From contig JBBELK010000975.1 in NCBI GenBank assembly GCA_037783545.1, positions 292,873 to 356,872 of the forward strand: a stretch of DNA of 64,000 bases, written 5' to 3'. The notes under the pieces are model-generated. The model saw only the letters and a program-made list of their open reading frames with translations, had not been told where the DNA came from and did not search any database. Origin of the DNA: Henricia sp. BOLD:AAB3569. Its lineage: Eukaryota > Echinodermata > Asteroidea > Spinulosida > Echinasteridae. Positions within the stretch are counted from its first letter, which is position 1; each line of letters opens with the position of its first letter. Shown piece after piece: positions 20,101 through 59,518 of the stretch. Made by a program: the position numbers and the translations under genes.

Positions 20101-21336
20101 ATGGCCACTCCAAACACTTCAGGTGCTGCAGCAATGCCGGCTTCAGCAACAACAGCAACGACTCCTTCAGGTAACAACAACAGCAAGCAAGATGATCTTC
20201 CTGAAGACAGTAAGACCAAACTACGTGAGATTGGTGACCAAGCCGTCTGGTCGTTGTCATCATGCAAACCAGGCTTTGGTGTGGATCAGTTGAGAGATAA
20301 CTCCATCGGTAAGAATTAAGAGGTAGATTACCATGTATGGACACCCAGGATTTGCCCCGTTATGACCTATAATCCATGTAAAAATTTTAGTTTAATGACA
20401 AAGACACAAGACTAAGAGGGAAAATGTTATGATTTTACTTACAAAACTTTGGATGAGAGAAAAATCGTAATGGATTTGAACTTGAAATCTATGCTCTACC
20501 AGCTCAGCTATGAGGCGCAGTTGGTATACTCCCTCAGGTTTCCCCCAAGACCTCTGACTCACCGGGCAGACGCTCTACCAGCCGAGCTATGAGGCGCAGT
20601 TGGTATACTCCCTCAGGTTTTCCCCAAGACCTCTGACTCACCGGGCAGACGCTTTACCAGCCGAGCTATGAGGCGCAGTTGGTATACTCCCTCGGGTTTC
20701 CCCTAAGACCTCTGACTGACCGGGCAGACGCTCTACCAGCTGAGCTATGAGGCGCAGTTGGTATACTCCCTCAGGTTTCCCCCAAGACCACTGACTCACC
20801 GGGCAGACGCTCTACCAGCTGAGCTATGAGGCGCAGTTGGTATACTTCCTCAGGTTTTCCCTATGGACCCAATTTTTTTCTCGGTGTTAAGGAAGCTTTA
20901 ATTTAATTTTTGGTTTGTACTCTTTCCAGAAACCTACTGGCAATCTGACGGCACCCAACCCCACCTCGTCAACATCCAATTCCGACGTAAGACCACCGTT
21001 CATAGCCTCGCGATCTATGCCGACTACAAGTCGGATGAAAGCTACACACCCAACAAGATATCCATCCGAATCGGTAACAACTTCCATGACTTACAGGAGA
21101 TTGAGCTACTAGAACTCGGCCAACCAACGGGATGGATTCGGATTCCTCTAGCGGATTCGGAAGGGAAACCGATCAGGACGTTTATGATCCAAATTGCCGC
21201 ATTGTCGAACCATCAGAACGGACGTGATACACATATGAGACAGATTAAGGTTTATGCACCGATGCAGGATAACGTATTTCATCATATACCAAACTTCTCT
21301 ACAGTGGAGTGCAGTATGTATAGTATCATTAGATGA
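20101..21336 (+). CDS. ANAPC10: anaphase-promoting complex subunit 10 (DOC domain), 204 aa
   Basis: Two coding exons, 20101-20308 and 20930-21336, joining in phase (G|AA = Glu). APC10 is the substrate co-receptor of the APC/C ubiquitin ligase, which recognises D-box degrons together with CDC20 or CDH1. The first exon encodes a variable Ala/Thr/Asn-rich N-terminus and then [20 protein letters not shown]. The second has the DOC core: [40 protein letters not shown] and [18 protein letters not shown], almost unchanged from vertebrate proteins. The C-terminus ends in Ile-Arg, the IR tail that docks on CDC27. It is ~20 residues longer than the human protein, all at the N-terminus. AATAAA at 21574. 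It converges on SMYD5, with 300 bp between the stop codons. Confidence 0.97.
20470..20860 (-). repeat. 79-bp tandem array of a tRNA-like unit in the ANAPC10 intron
   Basis: Five units at exact 79-bp spacing (gctctacc or gctttacc at 20493, 20572, 20651, 20730, 20809). On the minus strand each reads like the D-arm half of a tRNA: tagctgagctggtagagc, the pol III A-box pattern. Only the outermost copy (20472) has the B-box-like gttcaaatcc. A single related copy is at 22530-22615. This looks like tandem amplification of part of a tRNA-derived SINE, not working tRNA genes. Confidence 0.85.
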
Positions 21337-27856: not shown

Positions 27857-30800
27857 ATGGCGGGTATTAGTCGAGTCTTTCAAGTCGGTTGCGCATCTCG
27901 ACAAAAACTCTGTGAGAGATTGAGTTCACAGTGGAAGACATCGCAAAGCTTTAAAACCTACATACACCACGCAACCAACAAACGGGGTACTTCAAGTCAT
28001 TATCAAAAACTGCTAACGCCATACACTCGCGATGTTTTGCCCCAGTCTTCATCTGTATGTAACGTCATTGGGACAAGGCCAATCTCAACAACTAAGAATA
28101 AGAAGATAAGAACAGCTTACAGGTCAGATCTGAAAAACTGCCGACGAATCGTGCTCAAGTTGGGCAGTGCTGTGATCACACGAGATGATGAATGTGGATT
28201 GGCTCTCGGCAGACTGGCATCTATCATTGAACAGGTAAATAATGATTCCTAAAAATTAAGCACAGTAAATATTTTGGTAAAATTTAATTATTAATATTTT
28301 TGTTTAAAATTGCTTATCAAGCATCAATAAGTCTAGATATGATAGAAAAAGTGTGAAAATTTTAGATTTTCTTAAACGCCAGTAATAAATTTCAGCTGGT
28401 TGTATATGCTATGTTCACAAGGCCTGGTAAACTACTCAATTCTTTCCAAATATTCAAAGAGCAAATAAATCAAATTTGCAAAACCCTTTTAACAAGCCTA
28501 GTACACTACAGTACATAAATTATTTAATGGGCCGAGTTACTGAAATATATTTTCATCTTAATTTAGAAGACTTTTCTGGCATAGATTGACTGAATGTATG
28601 CAAAAACAAATGTATTTGAACCTTGCAGTCCTAGTTGGGTCTTTTACTCTCGTTGTTCATACTTTGAATTCCTCAAGGTATCCGAACTTCAGCAAAATGG
28701 CAAACAAGTAATGTTAGTGACAAGTGGGGCTGTTGCATTTGGCAAACAACGTCTTCGTCATGAAGTCATCTTATCACAGAGTATGAGGGAGACACTCATC
28801 CCAAACCAAGAAAAAGTGAGTTTGTTTTTAATCCTTTACCCTTCGACATCCTCCTACTAAATGTTCTAAAAGTGTGAATTGAAGAGAATACATGGTGTTA
28901 AAGGGGAAATGACCAAGACAAGAAAAAGGTAATGTAATGGTAATGGTCAATTCTTATATAGCGCACATGTCTACGCTGGGCGTACTCCTGGCGCTGTTGC
29001 CATTATTACCGCTGCCGTCAGGTACAAAGGTAAAAAGTACTGAGGTGTGCAAGGTTGTTAATTAGGGTTTGTTTTTGCCCTTACCCGACGTATATTAGCA
29101 CTGTATGCTCGGTGCTTTCCCGAGACACTATGAAAAACTTCATAGCGTGCTCGGGTAAAATTCGAACCCACAACCTCCTGCAAACAAGGCAGATGTCTTA
29201 ACCACTCGAACACCGAGCAATGTTGGAGAAGTCATTTTTTAAAGACTGATTTATGAATACGTAATTTGGATAAAATTGGACCGTATAGTTGGATCTGACA
29301 TATCCAAGGTTTACTTTATATTCGATACCTTTGTGGAAATGCCAACATTTACAATTTAGGTGTAATTTGTACGATTTTTCCAGCCAATTACATGTACAAT
29401 CAGTATTGTGATAAACACATTTGTGAAATGCAAAGCTCCGAATGTTGAGTTTCTTTTCTAAGACAGGTGTCCTGCAGAAAATTACACTTTTTGAATAATT
29501 TGCAATGTTGGGATAATGTTGGAGATGTTTCATAGTGTTGTCCTTAAAATCATCCAAGATTGCACAAAATACAAGAGCTCTGAAAGAGAATTGCGTATTT
29601 TATCAAAAAATACAAAGCAGTCGCATCCATCTCTAAGTAAATCAATCTACTCCCCCTCAATGCTGTTGTAATATGATGGTTTCAATATGCTCAACATCAT
29701 TATAAGCACTTTACACAACCTGCAGTGCAGTTTGCACTACAAATCCCAATGGAAAATGTCAATCTCCATGCACAGACGGGACAGGAACATTTTAATAACA
29801 GTGCATATACCTCCGATTTCATTTGTGAACAGATTTAGGGTCTTACGTGTTTGTGAATATTTAATGGTGCGTAGGCAGGTAATCCTACATTATTTTGTTA
29901 CTGTAAGTGTTGTTTAAAACAACATCCATATGATGCATAAATGGGAGGAGCTTCTAGTGAATAAAATGAGGGGGTGGGGGAAGAAAGCAATTAATTAATT
30001 AATCACTTTATTTTGGCACAGTTTTTTGTTGAAGATGGAAAAATTTCCAGTTTGTTTTCAGTCTTGATTCAAGTCCCAAGTCTTTTAAGGAGCTACTCTT
30101 GTTAAGTCTTGGAGACGAAGTCTTGATTCACATCCCAAGTCCTTGACAGCAAGTTTCAAGGTACAGCATGTGTGATTAATAAGGAAAACATGGGTTTTTT
30201 GGGGTTTGTTTGTTTCATGGGCTAAGATGTTGCAGTCTTATGATTACCTGCATTGAAAAATACAAATTATTGAAGAATTTATCTGTATTTTAGTTCGTCC
30301 CCACTAGTACCAGTCATATCAAGATTGAGTTGAGTCAATCCAAGTCTTAAAGACTTAGTAAACATATGTCAAACATATGTCAAAATCCTTGCCTATAAGT
30401 GTCGGTGTACCACAAGGATCAATTCTGGGCCCATTATTGTTTATCACATATACATATGACCTGCCTCTTTATGTATCCAAAAAGTGTAAGTTATATATGT
30501 ATGCCGATGACTCTACACTAACGTGCAGTTCCGAAAGCATTGTCGAAATTGAACCTAGCCTTAACAAGTCATTAGACATGATTCATCTGTGGTCCGTTAA
30601 AAATAAAATCAAAAATAATGCCAGTAAAACTAAATGTATGCTAATTGGCTCAAAGAAAAAGATAAGCGCGCATGAGCTCAAAGTACACATTAATAATGAT
30701 CAAGTGCATAACGTTAAATCGTTTAAATGCTTGGGTGTTATTATTGACGAAACCTTAAGTTGGAACCAGCATGTCGAATATGTAAAGAAGACAGTTTTCT

Positions 30801-33800
30801 CGAAATTAGCTATGTTAAAAAGAATTCGGGACTGTGTAACTCAAAAGCACATGAACACCCTTATGTTAAGTTTAGTAATGCCTAGTCTAGATTATTGTTG
30901 CACACTATGGGGTGACCGTTACGCAACTCATAACACTGTCTTGAACAAATGCCTCAAACGTGCAGCCAGAATAATACTTAAATGCGATTTCCTAACGCCG
31001 TCAGCTGACATGTTTAAAAAGCTCGACTGGCTTGCCTATCCAGAGAGAGTTAAATACAAGAAAGCTATATTTGTCTTTAAAAGCATAAATTCCTTGGCCC
31101 CGCAGTATATGGCAAGTCTATTTACACCTTACGTACAAACTCGAGAAACTCGTCAATCTGCCGAAAAAACACTGAAAATTCCCTTTGCACGAAAGGGGTC
31201 TTACGCCTCGAGTTTTGCTGTAACTGGCGCCGCAATTTGGAACAGCCTTAGTGCACACCTTAGAACTATGTCTTCTTTGAGCTCATTCAAATCGGCACTT
31301 CGCCAAACATACACATAATATTCACATGATCAACTTCAAGTGAGAAATGCTAATTGACGGAGTCGTATGACTTGGTTGCCATAAAATTTAACTTTAATTT
31401 TGGAGCCGGAGGGGAATTTTCCCGTTTGTTTTTATTTGTTCTCCTTAAAAAGTTTTTTGGCTGGTTTTTCGCCCTTCCTGTAATTAGCGTAAATGTTAGT
31501 GTCACGTGCATGTATAATAAATACTTGTGATTAGTTTTTGTATTATGTTGTAGTTGTTGTACAAAAAGTATCTTATTCCAGTTTGTTTGTGATTGTGAAG
31601 TAGTTCAATTTAGTATATTTGTTTTATGTGTGTTTGCAGGGCCCCAATGGAAACCAGTTTTTGTAAACTGTTTGGGCACACCCTGGGTAAATAAATGGAA
31701 TAAATAAATAAATAAATAAAGACTAACTTTCAATTTAAGTCTTCCACAGCAAATATAATTTTTTAAGTGCAACTCGAGTCTAAGTCGGTAACCTGATTCC
31801 CCAGTTCTATTTTGAAAGGGTTACACAAGTAACATTTAGAGAGAATAAAAACACAAAATGAGCCATATGGTGCACAAATATAAATTTCACAAAAAGGCGA
31901 AATTGGAAAAGATAATTCCAGCCAAATGATTTGTAACAGGTGTTGCATATTTGGCCAATTAAGACACTATTGACCAGATGTAATAATATGAAGTGTCATA
32001 TTATATGCGCTATATTCACATGACTATTCGTATTGTGTTCAGAGAATGAGACAGGTGTGTGTGTGAAAATGCCACGTACTGCCTGTACTATTTGTATAAA
32101 TTGAATCATTTTCTGTTTGTAGTTAATTAATATTAATTTTTGTGGATTAGTGTCTGAAGGATAATCCTGGTATAATTAAAGTGTTGGATCACAAGTTAAT
32201 TAATTACATCAAACTGTGCTATATGACAAAACATGATGGGCCAGTAATTGTTAAGGTAATGTATGTGAACTACATTAAAGGTCAACTTACAAATGAGTTG
32301 TAATCTAAACCAGCCATACGCTGTCCAACAACTGGAACTCAAAATTTAATTAATCATGCAACAAATTGATGTACTTATAGAGGCAGTCATTTTGTTGTTT
32401 CATTGAAAAGACAAGTCCCTTTTTAATTATTCTGTATTACATTTTATGGGTTTAAAGTTCATTTAGAGACAGTGCCATAGGCAGACAGCGCTTCAAACTG
32501 TGATTTTCAAATAAAACAATTTTTGATGAAGCAGATCATCACTGGCTCTACTTGTTTCCAGTAAAATACTACTAATTCAAAGATTACAATTTTTAAAATA
32601 CATACTGTAACCAAAGATAAGAATTATTTTTACAAGGCAGTGCTTTTTTAAGACATTCAGTTGTAACTTGGACACCAAATATTTCTAGAATTGTAGCCAT
32701 GTCGATTTGAAATTCAATGGAATTAATTTCCTGTTCCTCTCCATATTTGACCACAGGGCAATTTCTTATTGGATTCGCGTGCGTGTGCAGCAGCAGGGCA
32801 GAGTGGTCTCATGTCATTGTATGAAGCTATGTTCTCTCAGTATGGACTCACAACGGCTCAGGTAAATTAGCTTTAATACAGAGGGCATTCCCAAGGTACC
32901 TGACACCACATAATGACTATATAATGACCCAGTGAGCTCCACGTAGCGTGGTGTAGTGTGACGTAGCGTAACGGGATATGTCATGACATAGGATGACGCA
33001 CTACATCACCCAGTTAACACTTGATCCTGAGCTCGAGGCGGAAGACCGAGCTCGGGATCAGCCCCGGATCACAAACTGAGTGTAGTAAACGCTCTCGCGA
33101 CCAAATTGGCCGCGGATCAGACCCCGAGATTTCGGTCTCGCGTTGACGGAGGATTTGATTCCGAGCTCGGGATCAGTTTGCGGTTAGATAAGCAATTAAT
33201 CTTTACCGCATCCTGCCGCATCCGCTCCACAGCCGTAGCGGGGGAAAAGCGTGCGAAATTCAAGTGGCCTTGTACACTGTACATGCACAACCCATGCACA
33301 CATTGATCAGTACATACACACATAGAGCATGACCTTTGACTGCATAACTTTTAAAAATGGCATAGGCACCATAGCTTGCATGTAATTATTGCAGAAATGT
33401 TGCGAAGCTTACACAATACAAAGTTGCGCAAGTGGGCTTACGCAGTGCGTAAGGTTTAATGAAATCGGCTGCAGTTCTAGAAATCAGCGTGTGATCAAAA
33501 AACCCTAAATGCACCTCTCCAGATGAACATCATTTCTCTTTGTAAATCGTTTCTGTTTTCATCTGTCCTCTAGGTGTTGGTCACCAAGCCTGATTTCTAC
33601 CACGACTACTCCCGTAACAACCTGCGAGGCACCCTTAATGAACTACCCAGAATGAACATCATTCCTCTTTGTAAACCATTTCTGTTTTCATCTGTCCTCT
33701 AGGTGTTGGTCACCAAGCCTGATTTCTACCACGACTACTTCCGTAACAACCTGCGAGGCACCCTTAATGAACTACTCCGGATGAACATCATTCCTCTTTG

Positions 33801-36800
33801 TAAATCATTTCTATTTTCATCTGTCCTCTAGGTGTTGGTCACCAAGCCTGATTTTTACCACGACTACTCCCGTAACAACCTACAAGGCATCCTTAATGAA
33901 CTACCCAGAATGAACATCATTCCTCTTTGTAAACCGTTTCTGTTTTCATCTGTCCTCTAGGTGTTGGTCACCAAGCCTGATTTCTACCACGACTACTCCC
34001 GTAACAACCTGCGAGGCACCCTTAATGAACTACTCCGGATGAACATCATCCCCATTCTAAATGCTAATGATGTCGTCGCTCCACCTCCAGAATTAGACAA
34101 GGACCTTCAAGGGGTATTGGGCCATGATAAAGTATAATTATTCTGGTTGATTGTGTTTATTAATTATATTTTATTTATTATTCCTTCTGGTACAGAAACA
34201 AGAACTGCACAAAAGTATCCAGGATACTTTGGAAACGTGCTTCTACTGAGTACATTTACTATTTTAAAAATGCTGCAGTGAAGCACTTTGAAGAAAGCAC
34301 TATGAAAAGCACTATGAAGAAGCACTAATTAGATCCTGAATGTTTAATAGGCAAAGCACTAAAATGCGTCTTAGGAAGGGTCACTCTTCTTATCTTTGGA
34401 CGTTGGTATGGGAATTACTTTTGTAAAAGCAATTCCTGAAACATGACGTCACGGTTTGTTTACATGCGTGCAAGTCTATCTGTGTGGCAATCTCAGGGTA
34501 CTAGACAACATAGGGCTATAGAAAAGCACATATGTAAACAAACCGTGACGTCATTGTGTTTCAGGCCGATTACTGGTACGTCACAGTTCTCAAAAGTATA
34601 AAATGTTTCAATATCAAAAAATCTCATAATCTTCATTATATCATTTTTTTTTTTAAATTATGAATGGTTTATTAATTAAACCTTCGCGGCCCGAAGGCCG
34701 AATTAGAGTCCAATTTACAATCATTACTATTAATCTATGCACCACATTCACAAATTTTGTTTCCTTTACGATTCAGGTAATCAGTATCAAAGATAACGAT
34801 AGCCTGGCTGCCAGACTAGCTGCTGAAATGAATGCTGACCTTCTATTGTTACTATCGGATGTAAACGGCATCTTCACAGCGCCACCGGACCAAGAAGGCT
34901 CCAGGCTATTGGACACGGTCTACCCTGGCGATACGGCTAATATCATCTTTGGTGGATTGTCCAGAGTTGGGCTCGGGGGAATGGAATCAAAGGTAAGAAT
35001 ATATATGCGCTTCAGACTTGCAGGAGAAGAATTTCATTAAGGCCATGGCTATAACTTCTCAGCTCCAAAGACAAATTTATCAAGACCATTACCAAGAGAG
35101 GGTGTGGCCTTCTTGCCTCGATGGCCTCCGTGAAATTCCTTCCCTGCACTTGTTCAAATTCAAATGAGGGACGGGCAAGGGGGTGCGGGGAAAGGGGCAG
35201 AGGTTGGGGGTAAGGGGCAGAGGGATACGAGGAGGCTCACAAAACTGGTCTAGTATCTCACTGTAATCTTTATTGCTGGAGTGTGGTCCATCACAACTCC
35301 ACTCCAAGTCCTTTGGGACTTTAAATTCAAGTCCCAATCTATTAAAAGGCAGTTTTTTGTGCATGTTCATCCTTGGTTGTTTGTAATTGGACTTGTAAGT
35401 AACTTGTGGTGGACTGAACTGCAGCCTTGAAAATTTATAGGATAATCGCTATAAATAATATACGTGTGTATAAAAGAATATAGCTGTTTCACTATACAAA
35501 AATGGCTGAAATGATTGAGCTTATTGTAACACAATATATAGAAAGCCAAAAATTAAGGATCGAAACGTCGACTCAACCTTTTGCTTTCTATATGTTGTGT
35601 TACAATAAGCGCAATAATTTCAGCCATTTTTTGTAATGTATCTGTATGTTACCAGAACAAGGGGAATCCCCGGTGTCTCTGGTCATTTCTAATTAATCTA
35701 ATTCTTCATGGGTTTCCTCACGCTTGCGAGTGACAGTGCAATGAGCACTATTGAGGAATCCTTGGTATGAATACCAGAAAGAAATAATAATAATAAAAAT
35801 AAGAATTATTAATAATTCTGTCCAGTCGGCTGCATCCAGTCTGGAGAGGTCAAAGGTTGTTAGGTCATGACCTAATCAGTACCCTGTTGGTTTTCACCAG
35901 GTCAAAGCCGCCAGCTGGGCCCTGGAGCGAGGCATTGCAGTGGTCATTGCTAATGGTATGAGCACTGGACAGGTCATTCTGGATGTGGTCAAAGGTCGTA
36001 AGGTCGTTACCTTCTAATCAATACCCTGTTGGTTTTCACCAGGTCAAAGCCGCCAGCTGGGCCCTGGAGCGAGGCATTGCAGTGGTCATTGCTAATGGTA
36101 TGAGCACTGGACAGGTCATTCTGGATGTGGTCAAAGGTCGTAAGGTCGTTACCTTCTAATCAGTACCTTGTTGGTTTTCACCAGGTCAAAGCCGCCAGCT
36201 GGGCCCTGGAGCGAAGCATTGCAGTGGTCATTGCTAATGGTATGAGCACTGGACAGGGCATTCTGGATGTGGTCAAAGGTCGTAAGGTCGTTACCTTCTA
36301 ATCAGTACCTTGTTGGTTTTCACCAGGTCAAAGCCGCCAGCTGGGCCCTGGAGCGAGGCATTGCAGTGGTCATTGCTAATGGTATGAGCACTGGACAGGG
36401 CATTCTGGATGTGGTCAAAGGTCGTAAGGTCGTTACCTTCTAATCAATACCCTGTTGGTTTTCACCAGGTCAAAGCCGCCAGCTGGGCCCTGGAGCGAGG
36501 CATTGCAGTGGTCATTGCTAATGGTATGAGCACTGGACAGGTCATTCTGGACGTGGTCAAAGGTCGTAAGGTTGGAACCTTCTTCAGTGAGACTAAACCA
36601 ACGGGACCATCTCCTGATCTGCAGGCTGCCAAGGCGCGGGAAGGAGGAAGGTTACTGCAGGCACTCAAACCAGAACAGGTCATTGTTTGTTGTTTATTGT
36701 TATAATGATTTTACCTTGCATTTATAGATTTTTAAACACATGCAATAATCCAGTTTGATTAGTGCAAAATTGTTGCAAGATTGAGTTACCAGCAGAAATT

Positions 36801-39800
36801 GCAATATGTCAATTTGAGTTCTTGGCAATAGTAGCAGAATAACACTCAAACTTAATACACATTACATAACCCATTTTTGTAAAGCAAAACAATTATGTGC
36901 TAAAGCTACATGTAGGCAGTGCCATGAAATTGGCCCCTGGTCTTGCGAGTGCTCCCCCCAATTTTTCTTTTTTTTTGTGAATGAAGCAAATATTTCAGTG
37001 GGCATAATACACGCATTAAGACAAACATTTTAACAATGTGCGGAGTTCATATTAATGTTTCAGTTTTCTGGGGTTTTTTTTTTTCTTTTTTTTTTCACCA
37101 GCTTCTTGCTGCACTGTTTAAAAGCACATTTTATTTGCTGAACTAAATGCTGCAATTACTATACATCTATGTGCAAGGTTCCACATTGTGAGGTCTGTTG
37201 TTCAAACATTCGTTTCTCTGTAACAAATGTTCGTGTATATTTTTTTCAGAGGTCAGACATCATAAAGAAGCTGGCTGATTTGCTTGTTGAGCGATCCGAT
37301 GAAATAGTTGCTGCAAACAAACAAGACATGGACATAGCCAGAATGAGTAAGATATGAGCATGTTTTTACTGAGAAAGATTACCATTTAAAAAATGCTTTG
37401 ACGCCCGTTACTTTGAGAAAAAGAGGCGTGGAGGGAATTTAGTGTGAAACAACGCACTGAAAATCACAGAATCAACTTGGGCAGGAAGTGTTATTGTCAT
37501 TCTGTGATTTGCAGTGCGTTCATTCTCTCCACACCGCTTTTTCTCAAAGCGACGTGCGTCAAATTTGTGCGAAAAGCTTCAGTGTGAATCCAGCTTAATA
37601 AAGCTTACCCTCTTTCTCCATTCCCAGGTCAGATGTCAGGTCCCATGCTGGCCCGTCTCTCCCTGACTCCACCCAAGATTCGCAGCTTAGCCGACGGTTT
37701 GAGGCAAATTGCCGATAACTCGCATCAAAACGTGGGAAGAGAGATTAAACGAACCCTAATGGCCGACGGCATGGTGCTACGACAAATTACTGTCCCTATT
37801 GGGGTGTTGATGGTTATTTTTGAATCAAGGCCGGACTGTTTGCCTCAGGTAAGGACCTAGCGGCGTACTTGAAGCCTCATTCCCAAGAACAACATTTTAG
37901 GGTTGACAGTTATGTACTGCCAGCTAAATACCTTCCCGCCGTAGCCATTCAGTCTTTGTCAGCCATCTTTATTCTCAAGTGTTCTTCATCTTCTGAGCGG
38001 GGAGTGAGAATCTTGTTCGCAAACAGTGTTCGCATGTTCGTTTTCGTCTTTCAAAACTCAAATTCTGGCAAGACAGGAAGGGGATTTCAAATGCGCTCAG
38101 TGAGCCCTGCTCATATGGCAATATCACTGGTAAAGTAGGGAGTTTTAGACTGTCAAATCGACTATGTGGACTGCGACATGATGACATCGTTGTTAAGGCT
38201 TTGTACATGCGTAAAGTCGTCTCGCACGTCCACTGCCACAATCCAGAACACAATGACTGGTTTTGGACGAGAGAGACGACTTGATGCATGTACAAAGCCT
38301 CAACATCGACGTCATCATGTTGCTGTCCACGGGGTCGATGTAATAGTCTAAAACTCCCATTAACCAATGATTACTTGCACTGAGGCACTATATGGAGCGA
38401 GGGCTTTAACAATCTTAATGGATATGTTTAAGCACACTTACGGGGTACCGAGGGAGGGTTATAACAAAAGAAACAAAGGAACCTCATAAGTTGGTCTTTG
38501 TCTACTTAGTACCTGACAGAGTAAAACATGCGTTAAGTCTATGGAGTTTGTTTAGACAAAGGAAACAACGAAGCGAAGTAAGAGAGGGAAACAAAAGAGG
38601 TGTGGGTAATTTCCAAAATTAGGGGTCCAAAAGTGTGACATGCTTTTTAAGATTTCCAAGTGTTTTTAGTGATGGAATGTGGTTTCCCAGTAAAAAATAA
38701 TTATTTTTATTTCAACAAATGCCACTTAAATTTAATATTTATGTGTAGATATAGCACCAAGGTTAATGCAAACTCATTCTACAGCCAATTTTCATTGGCG
38801 TAGGTAACCCGGGATACCAAACTCCTATTCAATACATGGAACAAATTAAAAGCCTTAAATGGTCTTTTGTTTTGAATATTTTTCAGGAATCAGAGAACAA
38901 AATATTCAAGAAAATGATGCTGCCCCCTATAATCACAGGCCACAGTCCATTACTGATAATTTGTGATCATGAGTGGTGATTTTCGAAGCAGAGAGTGTCG
39001 TACGTAACTGGGACACCAACAATTTTGGACCCCTAATTTTGGGAATTACCCGTGTGTAAAAACCTGGTTGGGTGTGTGTGTATTGGTGTACAGGTTGCAG
39101 CGTTAGCCTTTAGCAGTGCTAACGGACTGGTTCTAAAGGGGGGCGAAGAGGCATCGTTAACCAATGGATACTTGCAGGGTTTAGTCACCGAGGCGCTGTA
39201 TGGAGCTGTAACAGGTCTTAATGTGTGTGTATTGATGTACAGGTTGCAGCGCTGGCCATCAGCAGTGCTAACGGACTGGTTCTAAAGGGGGGCAAAGAGG
39301 CATCGTTAACCAATGGATACTTGGAGGGTTTAGTGACCGAGGCGCTGTATGGAGCTGTAACATGTCTTAATGTGTGTGTATTGGTGTACAGGTTGCAGCG
39401 CTGGCCATCAGCAGTGCTAACGGACTGGTTCTAAAGGGGGGCAAAGAGGCATCGTTAACCAATGGATACTTGGAGGGTTTAGTGACCGAGGCATTGGACA
39501 TGTATGGAGCTACGGATGCAGTTGCATTGGTGAGTTTTATTTGTACAAATTTGTTACAAACAATAATAATTGAGACATATCTCGCACATATCCATCCCAA
39601 GGATACTCGGAGCACTGTTAAATAATTACCCCTGGTCATCGGGCTCAGTTTATACTTTGTGACAATGTTTGTTGTTGTATACTTAGCAGATTTTTATTCA
39701 GAAGCAAGTTCAAGCAAAATTGGAACATTTCTTTTCTAATTACATTGACATCAAATTGTTCACATAACAGCTTCATTATGCATGAAAATTGCCCTTTCTC

Positions 39801-42568
39801 TGATTTGCTGCTTAAAAGCTTAAAAATTGTTTTGCATTTCTTTAGTTGCTTGCTATAAGTCTCCCCATTAATATAGACAGACTTACATGCAGGCTTTAAT
39901 TGTTTGTTTTTGACCACATTCAGATCAACACCAGAGAGCAAGTAACTGATCTCCTCAAGATGGACGGTTTAGTAGACCTAGTGATTCCTCGAGGGTCTAA
40001 GGAGATGGTACAGAAGATACAACAAGAATCTCAAGGCATTCCAATCTTGGGCCACAGCGAGGGGATATGCCATGTCTTCATTGATAAAGACGTTGACCCA
40101 GAGATGGCTATTAAAATAGGTACAGTCCACAGTCAACAGAGCTGTATTTTGGAGAAGTAGAACGAAAGATTTTACGATTCTTTTTGCAAATGTTGCTGCC
40201 ATTAATCCTAAGATTGGTGGGTTAACCTTCCCCTCTGAACAGGGCTAAAAATTACATGTTTAAAAAGTAGCTTTTTTGATCAGTTAACTCCAGGAATGCA
40301 TAACCCAAGATTTGTATAGAATGCAACTCTTAACCCAGGTAATAACACAGGGTTAAATATTATGATGACCTTTTGAATCGTCTGGTTAAAATGCTTTGTG
40401 ATAAATGCCTTATGTAGACTCACTCACTCAACCGCATAGACAGCATGGGTCCGTCGCGCCGATCTCCTGTGCCCGCGTCCTATAGACTGGGCAAAACAAA
40501 CCTGTAATTTTTAAATCCAAAGACTGTATTCATTGGATTTTCATGAATTTATTAAATATCTGTGATTCTACTTCAGTGCGAGATTCAAAATGCGACTACC
40601 CCGCAGCCTGCAATGCCATGGAAACACTTCTGATTCACAATGACCTGAGACATACCGCCCTCTTTGACGATGTATTGGACATGCTACGAACTGAAAATGT
40701 GAGAACTTCAAAGATTATTTCATTTTCAAATCTTTGCAGTGACTGAATAGTCCAGTCAAGTAATTAGCGCAAATCTTTGCAGTGACTGCAGACTGTGTTA
40801 AATAGCTGCCAAGTCAAGTAATTAGCGCAAATCTTTGCAGTGACTGCAGACTGTTGAATAGCTGCCAAGTCAAGTAATTAGCGCAAATCTTTATTAATAA
40901 AAGTTCTTTATTGTAATTGTGAAATCTGCTTAGTTTGTGCAAAATAAAAATGTTTGCAATCTTAATTCCTATTGGCTGGTATCGAATAATCCTACAATCG
41001 CAGGTTAGGATCTATCCTATCCCTAGATGCAATGTTGATTCTCATTGGCTAGTATCATTCCATTAGCGATTAATCATCCAATCACAGGTTAGGATCTATC
41101 CAGGCCCTAGACTTGCCAAGTCTCTCAAGATTGGTCCCGCCGAGGCCCGTAGTTTGAGGATTGAGTACAGCAGTCTTGAGTGTGCTGTAGAAATCGTGGA
41201 TGATGTAGAAGAGGTCATTCAACATATCCACAAGTACGGCAGTGCACATACAGATGTTATCATTACGGAAGATAGTAAGTGGCTTTCTGGGGCGGATTGC
41301 AATAAAGAAAGTTGAGATGTCTTAACTCCTAACACGTCTTAATTAAGACATAAGCTATTTTGTCTTGCAAATTAAGTTATGACATACATTGGTTATATTG
41401 CAATCCACCCCTGCTTGTGAACCTGATTATCAACCTTTATCACGGTGCAGCCATGTTCCCTTTTCCCCTATTAAAATGAACGTAACTAAAGCGAGGCTTG
41501 CAGAATAAATAGTTTGGTCCTGTGTTGAAAATGTTTATTGTGTGCATCACAATGGCACACGCGCGGCATGATCAAGAAAATGCGCAACACAAAGTGATTC
41601 TCTCAAAACAACAACGGCAAATTACATGTACTATATCGCGCGGTTACGCCGACGCACTGATTGTGCTGACACATACTTTGGGGAACAAGACAAATATGGA
41701 CTCCAATAAAGGCATTCTTTTGTGCGTGTTCATCCTTTGCTTCTTGTTCCTGGACTCGTGCGGGACTTGTCACTGACTTGTGATTTTATCGGCTCTGGAC
41801 TTGTGATAGACTCGACTATAACCCTGATCTTTGTGGGCCTCTGTGTTGTTATGTGGTGGAAGTTCTGCCTAAATTGGAGTCTCAAATCTGTATATCTCTT
41901 GTTGAAACCAAACCATGTGATTTGTTTCCATTTAACAGCTCAAACAGCACAGAAGTTCTTAATGGGCGTTGACAGTGCTTGTGTGTTCCGCAACGCTAGC
42001 ACTAGATTTTCAGATGGCTACAGATTTGGACTAGGTATAGTTTTCTCACCTATATTTTTTAGCCACCGTGCCTCGTTCAAATCGCTTTGTTCTCTAAACT
42101 AACATTATTGAACAAAACTATGCTCTTACAATAATAAAACAATATACATGTACTGGTAAATTGGCATAGTTGTGTGCTGAATTAATATTTCTCTGCGAGT
42201 ACCCCGGTAAGATATAACTTTTGATGGCCATTGTGTATTTTTTGGTCCTGTGATGAGCAGAACTCATAACTATAAATTCTGCATTTATTAGAGTGACTTG
42301 CTATTGTTTTATTTAATTTAAATGCCATGAAAAGAATTTTTAGAAAGTGGTTTCATTGAGTAGTCGTTGAATCTCTGACAATCTTTCCCCTCCTTTAGGA
42401 GCTGAAGTTGGTATCAGCACGGCTCGTATCCACGCCCGAGGACCCGTCGGGGTGGAAGGCTTACTAACAACCAAATGGATTCTGGAAGGATCTGGGGATA
42501 TCGTCCAAGAATACGCCGAGGAAGGATCTAAGACGTATCGGCATGAATCGCTTCCCGTCCTAAGTTGA
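27857..42568 (+). CDS. ALDH18A1: delta-1-pyrroline-5-carboxylate synthase (P5CS), 808 aa
   Basis: Bifunctional mitochondrial enzyme: glutamate 5-kinase plus gamma-glutamyl-phosphate reductase, making the precursor of proline and ornithine. Coding exons: 27857-28234, 28678-28815, 32757-32861, 33961-34113, 34777-34992, 36469-36678, 37250-37346, 37628-37848, 39392-39529, 39924-40119, 40577-40698, 41088-41274, 41939-42034, 42399-42568. They total 2,427 nt and close in frame (human 795 aa). A basic, Ser-rich N-terminus looks like a transit peptide. Kinase motifs: VLKLGSAV (99-106), [32 protein letters not shown]. Reductase motifs: [29 protein letters not shown], and [10 protein letters not shown] with the likely catalytic Cys629. 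After DLQG the frame continues VISIKD and no second donor lies 6 nt downstream, so only the form lacking the vertebrate Val-Asn insert, the ornithine-sensitive form in mammals, can be made here. Exons 4, 6, 9 and 12 have tandem partial copies upstream. Confidence 0.96.
28928..29222 (-). mobile_element. tRNA-derived SINE in ALDH18A1 intron 2
   Basis: On the minus strand it starts gctcggtgttcgagtggtt (A-box-like), followed by gtgggttcgaattttaccc (B box ggttcgaat). The non-tRNA body extends to about 28930, ending near ggtaatggtcaattcttata. No poly(A) tail was resolved. Confidence 0.7.
30356..31716 (+). mobile_element. 5'-truncated non-LTR retrotransposon (LINE) with reverse transcriptase fragment
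   Basis: The frame at 30377-31318 (313 codons) begins inside the reverse transcriptase palm: [13 protein letters not shown], then YMYADDSTL (catalytic YADD), KCLGVIIDE and a typical thumb and C-terminal region. The endonuclease and N-terminal parts are missing. The 3' UTR ends in (aaat)n at about 31695-31716. taaagact occurs just before (30348) and just after (31717), a plausible 8-bp target duplication. Open for its whole length, so the insertion is relatively young. It sits in ALDH18A1 intron 2, same strand. The Jockey/CR1-like group is a guess. Confidence 0.88.
31726..32756. other. ALDH18A1 intron 2, 3' part
   Basis: AT-rich intron sequence with no exon or recognised repeat; several aattaattaa-type runs (30000, 32120, 32200). 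Confidence 0.5.
33523..33960 (+). repeat. three decoy copies of the ALDH18A1 exon 4 acceptor side (129-bp tandem)
   Basis: Copies of the exon start lie at 33574, 33703 and 33832, exactly 129 bp apart, before the genuine exon at 33961. Each has the acceptor ctgtcctctag and about 90 bp of exon ([12 protein letters not shown], then [10 protein letters not shown]), then switches at atgaacatcat to intron sequence. Reading on, each runs in frame to a TAG that is part of the next acceptor. A partial unit (agatgaacatcattt) precedes the first copy. Copies 1 and 3 share ctacccagaatg; copy 2 and the true exon share ctactccggatg. The nearest donor-like site is ttt|gtaaa(c/t); using it would give a 97-bp, frame-breaking exon. 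Confidence 0.93.
34435..34566. mobile_element. foldback element with tgacgtcacggtttgtttac ends
   Basis: gaaacatgacgtcacggttt (left) and aaaccgtgacgtcattgtg (right) are inverted; total about 132 bp. Related ends occur near 12865 and 47377 (atgacgtcacagtttgtttac). The arms contain TGACGTCA-type CRE words. ALDH18A1 intron 4. Confidence 0.75.
35501..35627. mobile_element. foldback element in ALDH18A1 intron 5
   Basis: aaaatggctgaaatgattga at the left and aataatttcagccatttt at the right, followed inwards by cttattgtaacacaatatat / atatgttgtgttacaataag. The loop contains gaaacgtcgactcaacc. Almost perfect 50-bp arms. Confidence 0.85.
35645..35795 (+). mobile_element. 3' fragment of the SINE-like family seen at 8729
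   Basis: aaggggaatccccggtgtct, cctcacgcttgcgagtgaca and gaataccagaaagaaataat match 8925-9060, including the ataata tail. Confidence 0.85.
35848..36468 (+). repeat. four decoy copies of the ALDH18A1 exon 6 acceptor side (142-bp tandem)
   Basis: Exon-start copies at 35901, 36043, 36185 and 36327, each exactly 142 bp apart, then the true exon at 36469. Each holds the acceptor ggttttcaccag and 102 bp of exon ([10 protein letters not shown] to VKGRK), then diverges at aaggtcgttaccttctaatc. A partial unit (ggtcaaaggttgttaggtc) precedes copy 1. A possible donor cgtaag|gtcgtt would make each copy a 34-codon in-frame exon; otherwise a TAA follows six codons later. Copies 3 and 4 share gggcattctgg; copies 1 and 2 keep ggtcattctgg. 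Confidence 0.93.
37400..37562. mobile_element. MITE-like element in ALDH18A1 intron 7
   Basis: Inverted ends tgacgcccgttactttgaga...aaagaggcgtgga and tccacaccgctttttctcaa...agcgacgtgcgtca; inside, cgcactgaaaatcacagaat faces attctgtgatttgcagtgcg. It resembles the region around 14880-14980. Confidence 0.8.
38136..38357. mobile_element. foldback element in ALDH18A1 intron 8
   Basis: Arms of ~90 bp: gggagttttagactgtcaaa and ttgttaaggctttgtacatg on the left; catgtacaaagcctcaac and atagtctaaaactccc on the right. About 222 bp, non-coding. It abuts the exon 9 relic at 38357. Confidence 0.85.
38357..38412 (+). pseudogene. diverged relic of the ALDH18A1 exon 9 repeat unit
   Basis: ttaaccaatgattacttgca, ctgaggcactatatggagc and caatcttaatg follow the order of the exon 9 decoy unit (ttaaccaatggatacttgca, accgaggcgctgtatggagc, ggtcttaatg). 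More diverged than the decoys at 39094 and 39243, so probably the oldest or founding segment. Confidence 0.6.
38413..39093. other. ALDH18A1 intron 8, 3' part
   Basis: No exon. A pair of short inverted segments is visible: ttaggggtccaaaagtgtg (near 38620) faces accaacaatt...ggacccctaa (near 39013-39035), with ccaaaattag / ttttgggaatta nearby, so 38600-39055 may be another decayed TIR element of ~450 bp. Confidence 0.45.
39094..39391 (+). repeat. two decoy copies of the ALDH18A1 exon 9 acceptor side (149-bp tandem)
   Basis: Exon-start copies at 39094 and 39243 precede the true exon at 39392, spacing exactly 149 bp. Each keeps the acceptor (t)gtacag and about 100 bp of exon ([31 protein letters not shown]) and then passes into ctgtatggagctgtaaca and intron sequence with gtgtgtgtattg. 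Candidate donors are gct|gtaaca (38-codon in-frame exon) and acag|gtctta (121-bp, frame-breaking). Copy 1 is the most diverged (AFSSAN, GGEEAS). Confidence 0.92.
40757..40890 (+). repeat. ~57-bp tandem triplication in ALDH18A1 intron 11
   Basis: caagtaattagcgcaaatct recurs at 40757, 40815 and 40871, with tttgcagtgactgcagactg between. It starts just after the exon 11 donor (40698), but no exon sequence is included. Confidence 0.85.
40960..41087 (+). repeat. decoy copy of the ALDH18A1 exon 12 acceptor (84-bp duplication)
   Basis: caatcgcaggttaggatcta at 40995 repeats caatcacaggttaggatcta at the true acceptor (exon start 41088), 84 bp apart. The upstream words attggctggtatc / attggctagtatc also repeat. 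Only about 25 bp of exon start is copied (VRIYP, then diverging), and the copy is decayed compared with those of exons 4, 6 and 9. Confidence 0.8.
41697..41820 (+). repeat. segment shared with the EEP 3' UTR
   Basis: Matches 18361-18470 (aaaggcattcttttgtgcg, catcctttgcttcttgtt, ttttatcggct, ggacttgtgatagac) and has one extra internal stretch (cgggacttgtcactgacttg). Located in ALDH18A1 intron 12. Confidence 0.75.
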
Positions 42569-46402: not shown

Positions 46403-49400
46403 CGTCCTCTGTCATTCTCACAGTAAATAGCAACATCCTTTGGCAAAGACCAACAATTTTCTGATTTTCTCCAGTCGAGGCACAATCACTTTTAAATTGG
46501 AAAAGAATAAACAAGGCCCCTGGACTACTGCAATATACTGGCCGAGTTGTCAGCGGGCAAAGGTGATTTTTGAATCAACCCTGGATGTTTTTCCAACGCG
46601 GTTGATTTCTAAGTGTAGACGGTCCCGGTGTATTTGCCGGACGCAGCTTCGCAAACACGACCAGGCAAGTTACATTATGACAGCCGCCTTGATTCGCACG
46701 CTCGCAAAGTGTTTCCGTGTTTACAGATCGCCGATACGAGCTCGTGTTCCGCACAAAAGGTGAAAGAGAAGTCGGAGGGTGGATTTGGGGGAAAATTCAA
46801 GACTGGAAGAGCTGCACGTATCAAACATTTTTTAAGAATAGAAATGAAAACGTCTTTGCTTTCTTGAACGATACTGTATACGACCGTTTTTATTTTCATT
46901 TATTTGTGCCTATTGCAAATATTTGCGAAATAGTGACATGAAATTTGACTTTCACACAACGCAAAATAAGAATCTTAAAAGAATGTAAAATGGACAGATT
47001 GAACAAGATCGTCAATAGTAACTACATTTACAGTTTGCTAAAGGATCGTCATGTAAACTGATTTGAAGAAAGGTACATTTTAGTATATTATTGCTCATGT
47101 GACAGTTATAATGAAAACCGTTTTGCTAAAATATTTATATTGTGGCTTTTTCTAACTGGCAAAATGCGGAGCAGCATGCAAGACACAATATATCTTGCGT
47201 AAAAGTTGAACGCCCAAAATCACATTTCATGGGAAACCACACAGTTCGATGCAAGGTTTCATCAGCTGTCTTCTGGGAAAACACACACAACAGCTGCAAG
47301 TTTTAATAATGAAATTAGTCGTCCATACACGGGCATTGCGCAAAATGGGCCGCTTGGGCAAACCTTTTCTGGTATAATGACGTCACAGTTTGTTTACATA
47401 TGTGCTTCTCAATTGCACACGAACTGGTTCCAAGCAGTGATGCATCAAGCCGTAACAGAACCCACTATTGACCATCATTTATTATTGTTCAAGCCGATAT
47501 ATTGTCCACTCCCTTATTTCAAGCCGATGCAGCGCCAGCGGATGATTACCGACTGATAGCCATTGTCCATCAGCACCGTACATTGGTCAAGCCTATGGTA
47601 TTATTTTTGATGTCCATTTCCGTCAGATCTGGCCGCAGCGGCAGCGGATGATTACCTACTGATTAATCGCTTCATCGCTACTCTTAAAGTGCCCTAGATC
47701 CGCATCCATTAGCCGCCATTAACCTTTACGTCGCAATTAAAACACTCATCAAAGCGCGGTGTGTATTGTAGGAAAAATTAACGGACCTCATAGATACGTA
47801 AACTTAGTCTGTATGTGCAATAACAAAAGCTCCCTCGCAGTAGTATACTATAGGTTACTGTGCTGGTTACTGGGCTGGTTACTGGGCTTTTATCCTTATA
47901 AAATATGACGTATCGTGCAGAGCCTCGTGTTGAAAGCAACCGTGCAACACCCATCTTATAAAACTAGTATTATAATTTTGACGAAACTGACGGTGGCATT
48001 TTATGGGCCGGTTGACAGTAGAATAAGTATAATATTGTTGTCATCACCGATTCGTTTCAAACTCCCATATGACGGTGGGGACGGGTACCCGGGACAGGTC
48101 GCGTGTGGCCCGCTGGCGTAGTTAAGAATCTGTCGGGAGAAGAGTAATTTCTTGGCGTGTGCAATGATGTTGGGCCTTGTGCAATGATGTTGGGCATTGT
48201 CATACGCTGTGTGTACATAGGAGGGTTGTTAGGCTTGTCGATCATTCAGAATTTGAGTAAGAGATGGTATTTCAAATTAATTTACTCTTGCATCAATCGG
48301 CGCTCACTGAATTTTGTGCACAGCTGCGGAGTACTGATATATAATATATTTTGGGAGTTGTAAAAAAAATAACTGAAAGAGTAAATATACTGAAAATGTT
48401 TGAGACCTTGCACCGACAAGTTTGCAGATTGCATACTGCATTGTAGACATACAATCAAACCCAACTTCAGACATTTTCTACAGACACTGAGTAGATTAAG
48501 TATAGTTCAACTTGTCCCGATATGAAATGCTTTTGAGGAACTACAAAATATAGGTTACAAAATGTAATAAAAATGTAGATTACGGATAAATAAAAGGATC
48601 CCCCAACTTGTCCTTTATATGCGCACATCCCCGAGATAATGACTTGAATGTTTCTATGCACACCGCGCTCCGAAAGCTTGTTAGTGCATGCATTATTTAT
48701 TCATTCATGTACGGCTGAAGTGTCGATGTGACCCAAATGAAGCTTTCCTGAGCCGACAAAGCAACATATTAACCTTGTTCTTATAAAGCAACATAAAATG
48801 CGATTGGTACTTAAAAACCCTCGTTCCTTGCCACAAGAGTTTACACCCGTCCTCTCGGTTAGACCGCGTGATGATAACGTCTTTAAAGGTGATTTTTGCT
48901 CGTACATCCTTTTCGTTACGTGAAGTCATGTCTTGATTTTTGAATTAAGATATCATCGTTAACAATTGGTACAAATGTATAACTAGAAATGTTAAAGACA
49001 GAGGAAATATGCCATGTAACTCCGCATAACGGCCTTGTACACTATTTCAGCTGAAATTTACAACTGACCAGAAATTAACCCCATGCTGAAGGTGTTATGA
49101 CTTGTTCCGTATAAAGGCAATCTGTACCTGGATCCGTCAAGCCGGTACGGTGGCGCTGGTACCGCGCTCCACCTAAAGAGGTTACGTATGGGTCCAGGGT
49201 TAGCAACGCACGGGAGAGAAGACATCCATTGAATGTTGATAATGAAATGACAGCCTTGGGTTTTGGGTCTCCAAAACCTCAAAGCGAATCTCTGTAAGCC
49301 GCTTACAACCAAACAACAAAATGTTTGAATCCTTTTATATTTTTATACAATCGTTTCCATATGGTGCATTAGTTTCTGGGGCACTTTCCCACCTATAATA

Positions 49401-53919: not shown

Positions 53920-54190
53920 ACTTCATCAGATGCAATAGATGCATCGGGTGCAATATAGGTGCGTGCAATAAGTTCATCAGATGCAATAGATGCATCGGGT
54001 GCAATATAGGTGCGTGCAATAGGTTCATCAGATGCAATAGATGCATCGGGTGCAATATAGGTGCGTGCAATAGGTTCATCAGATGCAATAGATGCATCGG
54101 GTGCAATATAGGTGCGTGCAATAGGTTCATCAGATGCAATAGATGCATCGGGTGCAATATAGGTGCGTGCAATAGGTTCATCAGGTGCAT
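53920..54190 (+). repeat. 51-bp minisatellite, about five units
   Basis: Unit ttcatcagatgcaatagatg + catcgggtgcaatataggtg + cgtgcaatagg, almost invariant except aagttcatc in the first unit and caggtgcatcc in the last. The unit is itself built from gcaata/gcatc words. It begins about 30 bp after the foldback element. Both strands are open because 51 is a multiple of 3; I do not call a protein. Confidence 0.92.
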
Positions 54191-57242: not shown

Positions 57243-58889
57243 AACGAATGGTTTGCATATTGACATCACAACGAATGGTTTGCATATTGACAGCACAACG
57301 AATGGTTTGCATATTGACAGCACAACGAATGGTTTGCATATTGACAGCACAACGAATGGTTTGCATATTGACATCACAACGAATGGTTTGCATATTGACA
57401 GCACAACGAATGGTTTGCATATTGACAGCACAACGAATGGTTTGCATATTGACAGCACAACGAATGGTTTGCATATTGACAGCACAACGAATGGTTTGCA
57501 TATTGACAGCACAACGAATGGTTTGCATATTGACAGCACAACGAATGGTTTGCATATTGACAGCACAACGAATGGTTTGCATATTGACAGCACAACGAAT
57601 GGTTTGCATATTGACAGCACAACGAATGGTTTGCATATTGACAGCACAACGAATGGTTTGCATATTGACAGCACAACGAATGGTTTGCATATTGACAGCA
57701 CAACGAATGGTTTGCATATTGACAGCACAACGAATGGTTTGCATATTGACAGCACAACGAATGGTTTGCATATTGACAGCACAACGAATGGTTTGCATAT
57801 TGACAGCACAACGAATGGTTTGCATATTGACAGCACAACGAATGGTTTGCATATTGACAGCACAACGAATGGTTTGCATATTGACAGCACAACGAATGGT
57901 TTGCATATTGACATCACAACGAATGGTTTGCATATTGACATCACAACGAATGGTTTGCATATTGACAGCACAACGAATGGTTTGCATATTGACATCACAA
58001 CGAATGGTTTGCATATTGACAGCACAACGAATGGTTTGCATATTGACATCACAACGAATGGTTTGCATATTGACATCACAACGAATGGTTTGCATATTGA
58101 CATCACAACGAATGGTTTGCATATTGACAGCACAACGAATGGTTTGCATATTGACAGCACAACGAATGGTTTGCATATTGACAGCACAACGAATGGTTTG
58201 CATATTGACAGCACAACGAATGGTTTGCATATTGACAGCACAACGAATGGTTTGCATATTGACATCACAACGAATGGTTTGCATATTGACAGCACAACGA
58301 ATGGTTTGCATATTGACATCACAACGAATGGTTTGCATATTGACAGCACAACGAATGGTTTGCATATTGACATCACAACGAATGGTTTGCATATTGACAG
58401 CACAACGAATGGTTTGCATATTGACATCACAACGAATGGTTTGCATATTGACATCACAACGAATGGTTTGCATATTGACAGCACAACGAATGGTTTGCAT
58501 ATTGACATCACAACGAATGGTTTGCATATTGACATCACAACGAATGGTTTGCATATTGACAGCACAACGAATGGTTTGCATATTGACAGCACAACGAATG
58601 GTTTGCATATTGACAGCATAACGAATGGTTTGCATATTGACAGCACAACGAATGGTTTGCATATTGACAGCACAACGAATGGTTTGCATATTGACAGCAC
58701 AACGAATGGTTTGCATATTGACAGCACAACGAATGGTTTGCATATTGACAGCACAACGAATGGTTTGCATATTGACAGCACAACGAATGGTTTGCATATT
58801 GACATCACAACGAATGGTTTGCATATTGACATCACAACGAATGGTTTGCATATTGACAGCACAACGAATGGTTTGCATATTGACATCAC
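57243..58889 (+). repeat. 27-bp satellite, exactly 61 units
   Basis: Unit aacgaatggtttgcatattg + aca(g/t)cac fills 1,647 bp, exactly 61 x 27, with no indel. Nearly the only variable base is G/T at unit position 24 (agcac or atcac). About 18 units carry T: numbers 1, 5, 25, 26, 28, 30-32, 38, 40, 42, 44, 45, 47, 48, 58, 59, 61. A long pure-G run covers units 6-24. Unit 51 has one extra change (cataacg). Long open frames on both strands are a by-product of the period being a multiple of 3. Confidence 0.97.
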
Positions 58890-59518
58890 AACAGGTCATT
58901 GCTTTATACGCATTATTTCTCTTTATTCAGCTTTCCGACTGCAATAAATATAGTTTACCTAATTTGAATTATAAATAGTAATATAGTTGAGTATTTACAT
59001 GCAATAGCTTTAAACGACATGTTTTTGTTTTTAATGTGACATCACAATACTATTTTAATTACCGATACTATTAACTCTAACACTCCTCAATCCTCCAAAA
59101 TCAATATGATTTTACATACACCCTAGGGAGTTAGGGTTAATTGTTTAGTTTCGAACATTCACGACTTTCTTGGATTTTTGAGAGAAAAGACTGTTTGGGG
59201 CAAATCACTTGTAACACTTTTGGACAAACGACTTTTTGGTTTTCGGAACAATACCTCTTCGGAAGAAAAACAATAGGTGGTTTGGACAAATATCCTTTCG
59301 GAAAAAATGCTTCTGCTTTTCGGATAAACGACCCTCAAACTAAAACTTTTCGAATCAACGGTCTTAGCCAACAAAAACGTTCAGAGTAATTAACTTCAAG
59401 TAACCGTTTGAAATACAGATCGGAATCTAAATAGTTTAACACTCCCGCCCCCTCCAATAAGGTCACCTGTCCGTGTGTATAACCTACATGTGTAATGCCC
59501 AAATACAATATATACAAA
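58890..59518. other. gene-free stretch after the satellite
   Basis: No gene. At 59155-59400 many short words of the form ttttcgga, tttggacaaa and aacgac recur irregularly, which suggests a decayed minisatellite. Confidence 0.45.

Follow-up and report, generated by a model that had tools for sequence, protein, structure and literature searches.

Tandem copies of the acceptor side at four exons of a starfish ALDH18A1 gene, and their likeness to the mirages of amphioxus

The ALDH18A1 gene and its acceptor arrays

The DNA considered here is a stretch of 64,000 nt from Henricia sp. BOLD:AAB3569 (GCA_037783545.1, contig JBBELK010000975.1, 292,873-356,872 of the forward strand), which is referred to as the window and within which all coordinates are given; the assembly as a whole comprises 740.7 Mb in 2104 contigs. 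The window contains a gene for ALDH18A1, or delta-1-pyrroline-5-carboxylate synthase (P5CS), whose 14 exons join into one uninterrupted reading frame (808 codons plus stop). The protein is 85% identical to the P5CS of Acanthaster planci and 83% identical to that of Asterias amurensis, both starfish and its two best matches, and a piece of 223 aa matches PDB 7f5t with an E value of 1e-65. The donor of exon 4, GGG/GTATTG (34105-34119; a slash marks the splice site here and below), has the lowest score among the gene's 13 donors by their own matrix; the starfish proteins support it. The gene and the four exons of concern, taken from the joined-exon gene model, are as follows.

27857..42568, + strand: ALDH18A1 (P5CS) gene, 14 coding exons, 808 aa
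33961..34113, + strand: genuine exon 4
36469..36678, + strand: genuine exon 6
39392..39529, + strand: genuine exon 9
41088..41274, + strand: genuine exon 12

Each of these exons is preceded by tandem copies of its own acceptor side, the decoy copies numbering three at exon 4, four at exon 6, two at exon 9 and one at exon 12. These counts, the unit lengths and the total of ten decoys had been put forward in an earlier note made from the sequence, and the positions listed below confirm them; each position is the first exon base after the acceptor.

33519..34049, + strand: exon 4 acceptor array, unit 129 bp; decoys 33574, 33703 and 33832; genuine 33961
35837..36588, + strand: exon 6 acceptor array, unit 142 bp; decoys 35901, 36043, 36185 and 36327; genuine 36469
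39073..39492, + strand: exon 9 acceptor array, unit 149 bp; decoys 39094 and 39243; genuine 39392
40955..41111, + strand: exon 12 acceptor pair, unit 84 bp; decoy 41004; genuine 41088

In form, the arrays resemble minisatellites, with units of 84-149 bp in two to five copies in the window, and their units cross the intron-exon boundary. The TRF scores of the exon 4, 6 and 9 arrays (936, 1348 and 777, respectively) are far above chance, and the exon 12 pair is a match of 84 columns at 73% (E 3e-7) with an 11-bp indel within its intron part. The exon 12 pair is older than the other three arrays; within the exon 6 array, copies 2 and 5 differ at none of the 142 positions compared.

The uniform polarity that had been claimed for such arrays holds within ALDH18A1, where all four lie at acceptor edges (4/4, two-sided p 0.125), but it does not hold genome-wide, since donor-side arrays occur on contigs C666 and C298 (see below). 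The further claim that the decoys always lack the genuine donor is correct in that the donor is not in place in the decoy copies of any of the four arrays. It needs qualifying in one respect, in that the first two decoys of exon 6 contain, at 35973 and 36115, the same 9-mer as the exon 6 donor, which would give an in-frame mini-exon of 72 nt followed by an intron of 70 nt. In decoys 3 and 4 of this exon, the GT of the 9-mer has been lost.

Decoy strength and the effect of decoy use

Acceptors and donors were scored with matrices built from the acceptors and donors of ALDH18A1 itself. Over the last 20 intron bases, the decoys of exons 4, 6 and 9 differ from the genuine acceptor at one position at most, and the genuine acceptor is outscored by three decoys at exons 4 and 6 and by one at exon 9. 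The exon 12 decoy scores -4.1, as against 2.3 for its genuine counterpart. Splicing at any of the ten decoys would lengthen the exon by at least one unit and so introduce a stop or shift the frame: in nine the extension contains a stop, and in the tenth (exon 9 decoy 39243) the frame is shifted by 149 bases with no internal stop. When the exon parts of the decoys at exons 4, 6 and 9 (n=9) are compared with the genuine exons, they carry in sum 5 silent and 10 amino-acid-changing differences, four of the nine carrying none (exon 12 is left out of this comparison). The decoy exon parts are thus not visibly maintained as coding sequence.

These properties bear on the idea that the extra acceptors are useful, in that decoy use would yield non-productive mRNA and thereby set the level of P5CS, with copy number as the dial. 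In its favour, the decoys of exons 4, 6 and 9 are almost identical to the genuine acceptor, some with a higher score, and all ten decoys would produce a stop or frameshift. The amino-acid-changing differences speak against it, however, as do the strongly differing counts in two intact versions of the gene, one of which (on contig C1185) has no exon 4 decoy, and the presence of comparable arrays in unrelated genes and at donors. Taken together, these points make a useful role very improbable.

A second assembled version of the gene

A second ALDH18A1 lies on contig C1185, which is collinear with the window from 15.3 to 62.8 kb except for several indels and displaced pieces, the aligned pieces being mostly 90-97% identical. 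This version is also intact at 808 aa and differs from that of the window in 30 of 2427 coding bases and in five residues. Because the exons of many genes occur on paired contigs, C1185 is read as the other haplotype; it could also be a diverged segmental duplicate.

The acceptors at exons 4, 6, 9 and 12 number 1, 2, 5 and 3 on C1185, compared with 4, 5, 3 and 2 in the window, such that, with C1185 taken as the other haplotype, copy number differs at all four arrays. From this difference it follows that these are copy-number-variable minisatellites lying across acceptors, which are hard to explain as assembly error. Indeed, the earlier note had named an assembly artefact as the outcome that would undo its finding, and such an outcome is made unlikely by a separately assembled copy of the gene whose arrays occupy these exons in different numbers. 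False tandem copies could in principle stem from divergent haplotypes or read errors, and the assembly does contain many paired contigs and some identical units (the exon 6 copies 2 and 5). Against this, counts at a given exon differ between the two contigs, the copies have diverged and group by position, and relics lie near the arrays, all of which leaves an artefact extremely improbable. Two intact versions of the gene with very different acceptor counts support the suggestion, also made in that note, that extra acceptors are tolerated.

Trees of the copies place genuine copies with genuine copies across the two versions at exon 6 (support 0.96), exon 9 (0.98) and exon 12 (0.68), first copies with first copies at exon 9 (0.80) and exon 12 (0.92), and internal copies with internal copies at exon 9 (0.79). 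From these pairings it appears that the exon 9 and exon 12 arrays, and probably the exon 6 array, predate the split of the versions and then changed in length. Homogenisation of the internal copies, with the boundary copies excluded, is clear at exon 9 only, in a comparison that leaves out exon 4 with its single copy on C1185. That single exon 4 acceptor is flanked by a direct repeat, one half in the intron and the other in the exon, with a spacing of exactly 129 and 31/40 positions identical; at offsets of 127, 128, 130 and 131 the figure is at most 19/40. This repeat may have seeded the array, or it may be a scar left when the array contracted.

Several further tandem repeats at the locus differ between the versions too. 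With copies counted at 60% or more of the unit, the window and C1185 have, respectively, one and six copies of a 103-bp unit at 47529-47661, five and 12 copies of the repeat at 53922, and 61 and 35 copies of a 27-bp satellite at 57243-58892. Arrays also occur within the introns of the gene. In the C1185 version these are two copies of a 145-bp unit (intron 2) and repeats of 86 bp (intron 8); in the window version, a 56-bp array directly follows exon 11.

Older copies and short repeats beside the arrays

Three of the four arrays are accompanied by diverged or decayed copies.

33502..33568, + strand: end of the intron, holding a diverged exon 4 copy (of 34018-34082), in a register of 4 x 129; 48/67 identical, p 0.001
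35837-35880, + strand: diverged left flank of the exon 6 array; 34/46 positions shared with exon 6 (p 0.002)
38360..38436, + strand: intron 8 relic of an exon 9 unit, decayed; 60/87 positions match the unit (p 0.001)

The first of these may be a flank or a seed of the exon 4 array. Alongside the exon 12 array, neither a relic nor a seed repeat was found (p 0.86). Across 13 exons and both of their sides, a likeness between intron and exon is significant only at the acceptor sides of exons 4, 6 and 9, where part of it is the array itself. An imperfect foldback (an inverted repeat seen by eye) lies in intron 8 at 38120-38365, just upstream of the exon 9 relic.

In this regard, what had been described as independent local duplications are not simply one-off events, as decayed copies adjoin three of the four arrays and copy number varies at all four. 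The proposal that duplication proceeded through short homologies fares better, with homology between intron and exon in the flanks of exons 4 and 6, though none at exon 12.

The likeness of intron ends to exons might also suggest that the intron ends are duplicated and intronised exon interior, the acceptors having been born by exon duplication. The intron end at exon 4 does resemble the interior of exon 4, in register. Outside the shared core, however, the likeness is insignificant at exons 4, 6 and 12 (p 0.19, 0.83 and 0.72, respectively), on which ground a derivation from exon interior was rejected; we consider it highly improbable.

Exon-edge arrays in other genes

Whether arrays of this kind occur in other genes was assessed from profile matches in five families (PF00171, 14 matches; PF00118, 90; PF01602, 60; PF00493, 45; PF00133, 38). 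Nine of the 247 matches are decoy copies, and exon-edge arrays are present at five of the 238 others (2.1%), these five exon matches representing four genes, one of which is seen on both of its paired contigs. For PF00171, 13 of 184 candidates were scored and the exons of ALDH18A1 itself are absent from the list, which must therefore miss much; the other four families include weak matches up to E 1, and the 238 thus hold some doubtful exons. The figure of 5/238 is probably a lower bound, with short copies escaping the profile search.

Both edges of exons are affected. At donors, an ALDH gene on C666 has an array with one genuine donor (presumably the first) and seven decoys in steps of ~170 bp, and a CCT gene on C298 has one decoy donor. 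At acceptors, as in ALDH18A1, a gene on C480, which from its translated exon we take to be COPG-like, has six decoy acceptors, one of them diverged, and an MCM gene has one decoy acceptor on both C33 and C230. On C70, which is paired with C480, there is a genuine acceptor and a diverged relic only, with no matching decoy acceptor. The suggestion in the earlier note that a process targets these junctions is not borne out for acceptors in particular, given the donor-side arrays on C666 and C298 and the intronic arrays within ALDH18A1.

Overlapping profile ranges were sought by script for PF00118 and by visual inspection in the remaining four. The script returned six pairs in PF00118: that on C298, 38 bp apart, had its sequence examined, and the five with wider spacing (464-2679 bp) were interpreted as loosely placed ends of alignments. 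No edge array was seen by eye among the 38 PF00133 matches. Apparent tandem copies on C259 and C715 proved not to be such, and a candidate in an adaptin-family gene (C105:628201-630200) was set aside, by eye, as a tandem pair of complete, similar exons that have a donor apiece, in the manner of mutually exclusive exons. Self-comparison of two further ALDH loci of 6 kb each, on C539 and C218, gave no obvious exon-edge array; at the former a 73-bp repeat follows an exon at a short distance (2167-2369 when the stretch is read in reverse). In a control of random loci (n=19), 10/19 were mostly satellite, with units of ~273 or 297 bp and most of these stretches from small contigs, which is why the exon-based survey was used instead.

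How unusual is ALDH18A1?

Several estimates of chance are available, all of which precede any correction for the choice of ALDH18A1, a gene picked because it is extreme. If five units are placed at random in the gene, at least four fall at acceptors with P 3.1e-4. Long-unit arrays elsewhere in the window (4 in 49 kb) have a density that predicts 0.11 at the acceptors of the gene; four would have P 6e-6, equivalent to 0.12 gene among an assumed 20,000. The survey's rate of 2.1% per exon gives, for 13 exons, an expectation of 0.27 arrays and P 1.9e-4 for at least four, or about four genes among the same 20,000; the acceptor-side rate of 3/238 gives P 2.6e-5 and ~0.5 gene. The earlier judgement that four acceptor arrays in one gene are hard to explain by chance stands in so far as the gene remains unusual, but ALDH18A1 is an extreme and not clearly an anomaly.

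A possible role of AG/GT acceptors

The exons that bear arrays in ALDH18A1 all start with GT (4/4, compared with 7/13 acceptors in the gene, p 0.049). A repeated AG/GT junction makes each unit a GT...AG segment that could be excised as an intron, as in the Rogers model or in recursive splicing, and it is possible to suppose that this underlies the tolerance of the arrays, a supposition compatible with the explanation preferred below. Consistent with it, the scores of the AG/GT sequences at exons 4, 6 and 12 lie inside the interval spanned by the donors of the gene. The association, however, is of marginal significance and post hoc, the donor scores come from a matrix trained on ALDH18A1 itself, and exon 9 scores only -2.2. 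Moreover, the arrays on C480 (AG/CA) and C33 (AG/AG in the decoy, AG/GG in the genuine acceptor) have no starting GT, which breaks AG/GT as a requirement. On balance, a role for AG/GT in tolerance is unlikely.

Relation to mirages and other known systems

The note from which this work started knew of no described case, but the arrays of ALDH18A1 are of a kind that is already known, namely the mirages of amphioxus (PMC3087553, PMC3902484), with a related case in the potato RdRp gene (PMC4974935). Mirages are tandem repeats across exon-intron boundaries, reported for Adh3 and the globins BflGb6 and BflGb9 (PMC3087553) and for PGBD5 and troponin C (PMC3902484), with units of 10-160 bp (PMC3087553, PMC3902484). 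In BflGb6 the units of 150-160 bp comprise the 3' intron end and the 5' part of the exon, six in one haplotype and three in another; both exon edges are reported to be affected, and boundary copies to be excluded from homogenisation (PMC3087553). Adh3 data together with RT-PCR are said to suggest that regular splicing is undisturbed (PMC3087553), and somatic length instability has been reported at amphioxus Adh3.

The features common to both systems are tandem duplication across a boundary, length variation between haplotypes, homogenisation that excludes the boundary copies (clear in ALDH18A1 at exon 9), and the involvement of both exon edges. Henricia differs in being an echinoderm and in having four arrays in one gene, all varying between two assembled versions. 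No exon-edge array of an echinoderm was found in the literature, which was covered in part and with starfish barely targeted, such that this is weak evidence of absence. Mirages are here extended from amphioxus to an echinoderm genome, in which, at 5/238 exon matches, they are apparently not rare.

Other systems are more distant. The tandem duplicate in potato RdRp is described as one extra copy in which a cryptic GTAAG donor gave rise to a new, spliced intron (PMC4974935), whereas the ALDH18A1 arrays of the window have one to four decoy copies each. Intron gain by tandem genomic duplication is attributed to Rogers 1989, Hellsten 2011 and Gao and Lynch 2009 (via PMC3443670, PMC4974935 and PMC3087553), and Drosophila introns are reported to have been gained through exon duplication (PMC2891723); an internal duplication carrying splice signals is common to tandem-duplication intron gain and to the present arrays, the new intron being a feature of the former. 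Human internal tandem repeats at exon-intron boundaries are reported as variable, found in recently duplicated genes and with units averaging 30 bp (PMC2812944), and they resemble the ALDH18A1 arrays as variable minisatellites at exon edges, albeit with shorter units. It has also been reported that mRNA decay shelters poorly spliced new introns (PMC2809761).

Origin and tolerance of the arrays

The arrays are very probably mirages, produced by local tandem duplication and unequal exchange and tolerated because the copy nearest the donor retains the complete exon. Against this stand the unusual gathering of four acceptor-side arrays in one gene, the chance that C1185 is a segmental duplicate, and exon 12, where neither relic nor seed repeat was found and the decoy scores below the genuine acceptor. 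A local tandem duplication of the intron end and the exon start, probably aided by short direct repeats that intron and exon have in common, would create a second acceptor. The array could then grow or shrink by unequal exchange or replication slippage, such that alleles would come to differ in copy number. Only the last copy precedes the full exon and its donor, and either exon definition or closeness to the donor would select it, in which case the upstream copies would be silent. Were a decoy used, the resulting stop or frameshift would lead to the mRNA being discarded. That the two versions are alleles, that exchange was unequal and that misspliced mRNA decays are steps that we infer; likewise, the intact genes and the amphioxus reports suggest that splicing ignores the ALDH18A1 decoys.

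On a broader reading, the number of acceptors at several exons of this housekeeping gene would govern how much of its mRNA is productive and so act as a quantitative trait of expression, and the arrays would keep giving rise to new introns, in other words a fast-turning layer of splicing that varies in the population; this we hold to be very unlikely. An exon with one acceptor in one version and four near-equal ones in the other, or with five and three, amounts to a natural experiment on the choice that the spliceosome makes among identical acceptors, and on how introns begin to arise through tandem duplication.

Further elements at the locus

Two insertions present in the window are missing from the C1185 version: a segment in intron 2 with a reverse-transcriptase ORF (PF00078; 30344-31717), and a MITE-like element in intron 8 with terminal inverted repeats of ~29 bp (GGGTAATT..; 38604-39051). 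An intron of ANAPC10 contains a 79-bp array (20493-20861) that ends ~65 bp before an exon match at 20929, and its unit looks, by eye, partly tRNA-like.
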